48,516 bases of DNA from Cryomorphaceae bacterium (GTDB lineage Bacteria; Bacteroidota; Bacteroidia; Flavobacteriales_D; Crocinitomicaceae), in assembly GCA_021300505.1 (NCBI GenBank), contig JAJTDQ010000013.1, forward strand, positions 1 through 48,516, read 5' to 3'. The notes under the pieces were generated by a model. The model did no database searches. It was not told where the DNA came from and was given only the letters and a program-made list of their open reading frames with translations. Of the stretch, positions 6,982 through 11,295 are shown piece after piece (positions within the stretch are counted from its first letter, which is position 1; each line of letters starts with the position of its first letter). The position numbers were made by a program, and so were the translations under genes.

Positions 6982-11295
<4,314 letters not shown>

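Follow-up and report, generated by a model that had tools for sequence, protein, structure and literature searches.

The rpoC gene in this Cryomorphaceae draft genome, which encodes the RNA polymerase beta' subunit, is interrupted by an in-frame TAG at positions 7390-7392 of the window (the whole 48,516-nucleotide stretch analysed, from contig JAJTDQ010000013.1). Most likely this codon arose as an error of sequence or assembly in the draft and is not new biology. The interruption is present in the sequence as the first-pass annotation had described it: the TAG, codon 130, is in frame both with the ATG at 7003 and with a 1299-codon open reading frame at 7396-11295, RpoC coding continues in one frame on either side, and the frame ends at the TAA at 11295. 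The features concerned are:

7003..11295, plus strand: rpoC (RNA polymerase beta'), with one interruption; Pfam RNA_pol_Rpb1 domains 1-5; single copy
7003..7389, plus strand: N-terminal part of rpoC, the 129 codons ahead of the stop; protein 100% identical to that of four further genomes from the genus, G004, G008, G009 and G011
7390..7392, plus strand: in-frame TAG; AAG or AAA (Lys) in all relatives read
7396..11295, plus strand: remainder of rpoC; in relatives the codon at TTG 7396 simply encodes leucine

Apart from this codon, the gene is a regular beta' gene of the Bacteroidota type. When the frame is read through the stop, Rpb1 domains 1-5 are found in order by Pfam, and the protein is 98% identical to beta' of genomes G004 and G008. 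It also matches solved beta' chains over their full length, the best being 9n9p_D, which has LPSKKLD at the corresponding site; the one in-frame TAG at codon 130 is what sets the gene apart from the type. The first domain, RNA_pol_Rpb1_1, occupies residues 20-367 of the read-through frame, with the stop inside it at about residue 137, just after the zinc-finger region of beta'. The source assembly (G000; 2.41 Mb in 174 contigs, 85% complete) contains one rpoC, and the 30-base site is present once. A second copy of rpoC, a search suggested by the first-pass annotation, was sought in this assembly and not found, nor was an exact match to the TAG site found in the genomes of other species.

Lysine, encoded by AAG or AAA, occupies this position in all relatives read at the site; none has a stop, and the rpoC frame is open through the site in all of them, so the earlier expectation that lysine is usual here holds. 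Among the three closest relatives, which are about 92% identical in DNA, the codon is AAG in G008 and G011 and AAA in G004. Given the AAG of these relatives, a single A-to-T change accounts for the TAG, in agreement with the AAG-to-TAG change originally proposed. About 4.5% of the single-base substitutions in rpoC give a stop codon, with lysine codons as the second commonest source. The private differences of the source genome in rpoB and rpoC are nearly all at third positions, with one private second-position change, the TAG codon aside; the rest of the two genes is as strongly constrained as in G004 and G008, which indicates that rpoC is in use. Three other drafts from the order, G011, G331 and G378, which are likewise fragmented and 83-86% complete, have in-frame TAA codons elsewhere in rpoC, which also favours an error.

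An error is favoured because other conserved single-copy genes are broken in the same assembly and intact in relatives. About 0.75 Mb of the source assembly was surveyed for breaks, against about 0.89 Mb of the same-genus genome G016; several apparent stops from the automatic survey were left out, as they lay on the antisense strand, between genes or at gene ends. Four of 126 comparable genes (rpoC, rpsF, clpX and lpd) are broken with respect to G016, while the reverse comparison, over 127 genes of G016, returned only matches at gene ends or outside genes. This contrast in gene counts is small (Fisher p = 0.06) and, although suggestive, is not conclusive alone. In the single-copy rpsF (contig C130 (L197), position 1789, minus strand) a TAG stands where G016 has AAG for lysine, a change identical to that in rpoC, and the single-copy clpX (contig C1 (L151), near 16470, minus strand) has a one-base deletion with respect to G016. 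A TAA also breaks the frame of a gene on contig C55 (L157; position 7518, plus strand) whose TPR-rich product has about 1000 residues. Two further breaks are located in the window itself:

35843..37230, minus strand: lpd (dihydrolipoamide dehydrogenase), with a deletion of about 70 bases near 36125 and a change of frame
11739..12129, plus strand: small gene conserved in the genus, with a stop (TAA, 11802) and, near 12005, an insertion of 4 bases

An intact lpd paralogue is present on contig C107, and the broken copy could be a real pseudogene. In the small gene, relatives have Gln or Arg at the position of the TAA, and the insertion lies in an AT-rich stretch; here the breaks could reflect either error or a real pseudogene. 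On contig C5 (L222), one more candidate TAG was rejected, as an iron-containing alcohol dehydrogenase gene naturally ends there.

Stops and indels in several unrelated conserved genes are what is seen with errors in draft metagenome assemblies. True breakage of rpoC, rpsF and clpX in one genome is not credible, and scattered errors explain all three jointly. Of the options put forward in the first-pass annotation, a base error is thus the best supported, by these other broken genes. Very probably, one base of this fragmented draft metagenome assembly was read or assembled as T instead of A. The living organism would then almost certainly have an uninterrupted lysine codon at the site and make a normal, full-length beta', and we infer that sequencing reads would show a lysine codon at 7390-7392. 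On the other side of the balance, rpoB and the remainder of rpoC look clean, which means that errors are not frequent throughout.

The alternative in which the amber codon is real and a suppressor tRNA, for lysine or another amino acid, reads through it to give full-length beta' is highly improbable. It draws on the fact that both TAG interruptions found, in rpoC and in rpsF, are AAG-to-TAG changes at lysine sites; two identical breaks are allowed by chance, yet they would also be predicted by a lysine-inserting suppressor. The tRNA search proposed earlier returned no CUA anticodon among the 25 tRNAs found in the source assembly; at 85% completeness some tRNAs are missing, and a suppressor could be one of these. 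Release factor 1, however, is intact: the GGQ motif is present, and a tripeptide, PET, conforms to the PxT motif. TAG is an ordinary stop codon in this genome. It terminates 119 of the 541 long open reading frames (22%), and 25 of the 28 TAG ends that could be compared agree with the gene ends of relatives; of the three that do not, two correspond to the breaks in rpoC and lpd. The earlier argument against reassignment, that nusG (312-863) ends in TAG, therefore extends genome-wide. Suppression would also leave the frameshifts and the TAA breaks unexplained, and the fold 3' of the stop is not better than that of shuffled sequences (z = -0.78), so that a structured readthrough element was not detected there. 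The readthrough or suppression option of the first-pass annotation lacks support. Outright recoding of TAG is unlikely: a CUA tRNA is absent from those 25, release factor 1 is neither lost nor altered, and TAG is not avoided as a terminator. A combined reading, with genuine amber codons at lysines of rpoC and rpsF, a suppressor tRNA encoded in the 15% of the genome that is missing and TAG still serving as a stop elsewhere, is extremely improbable. The share of long open reading frames ending in TAG differs within the genus, at 22% in the source genome (GC 41%) versus 7% in G016 (GC 34%).

The first-pass annotation had also raised a two-part beta' made by reinitiation at TTG 7396; its N-terminal piece would have 129 residues. 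TTG is possible as a start codon and both reading frames are open, but the break falls within Pfam domain 1 instead of at a domain boundary, no relative is split here, and the leucine at 7396 and its flanking residues are conserved beta' sequence; we give this proposal practically no credence. In cyanobacteria and plastids, beta' is made in two pieces, from rpoC1 and rpoC2, and the split is fixed in the lineage. That split is several hundred residues further in than the break described here, and the relatives of the source genome are all unsplit at this point. It is also very unlikely that the TAG is a real allele, either a recent null or one from a minor strain, caught in a mixed-strain consensus. 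Metagenome assemblies do mix strains, and the flanks of the codon are otherwise normal. However, rpoC is essential and a null allele would not be expected to persist, and its coincidence with the breaks in clpX and rpsF would be required.

The observation of a TAG in rpoC is thus confirmed, and its explanation is most likely ordinary, namely an error in the draft. Were the amber codon real, rpoC would be a striking example of an essential gene in which TAG has a dual use. As it stands, the case is mainly a caution: a single-base break in an essential gene of a fragmented metagenome assembly should first be judged against the rest of that assembly, and only then attributed to recoding or to a split gene.
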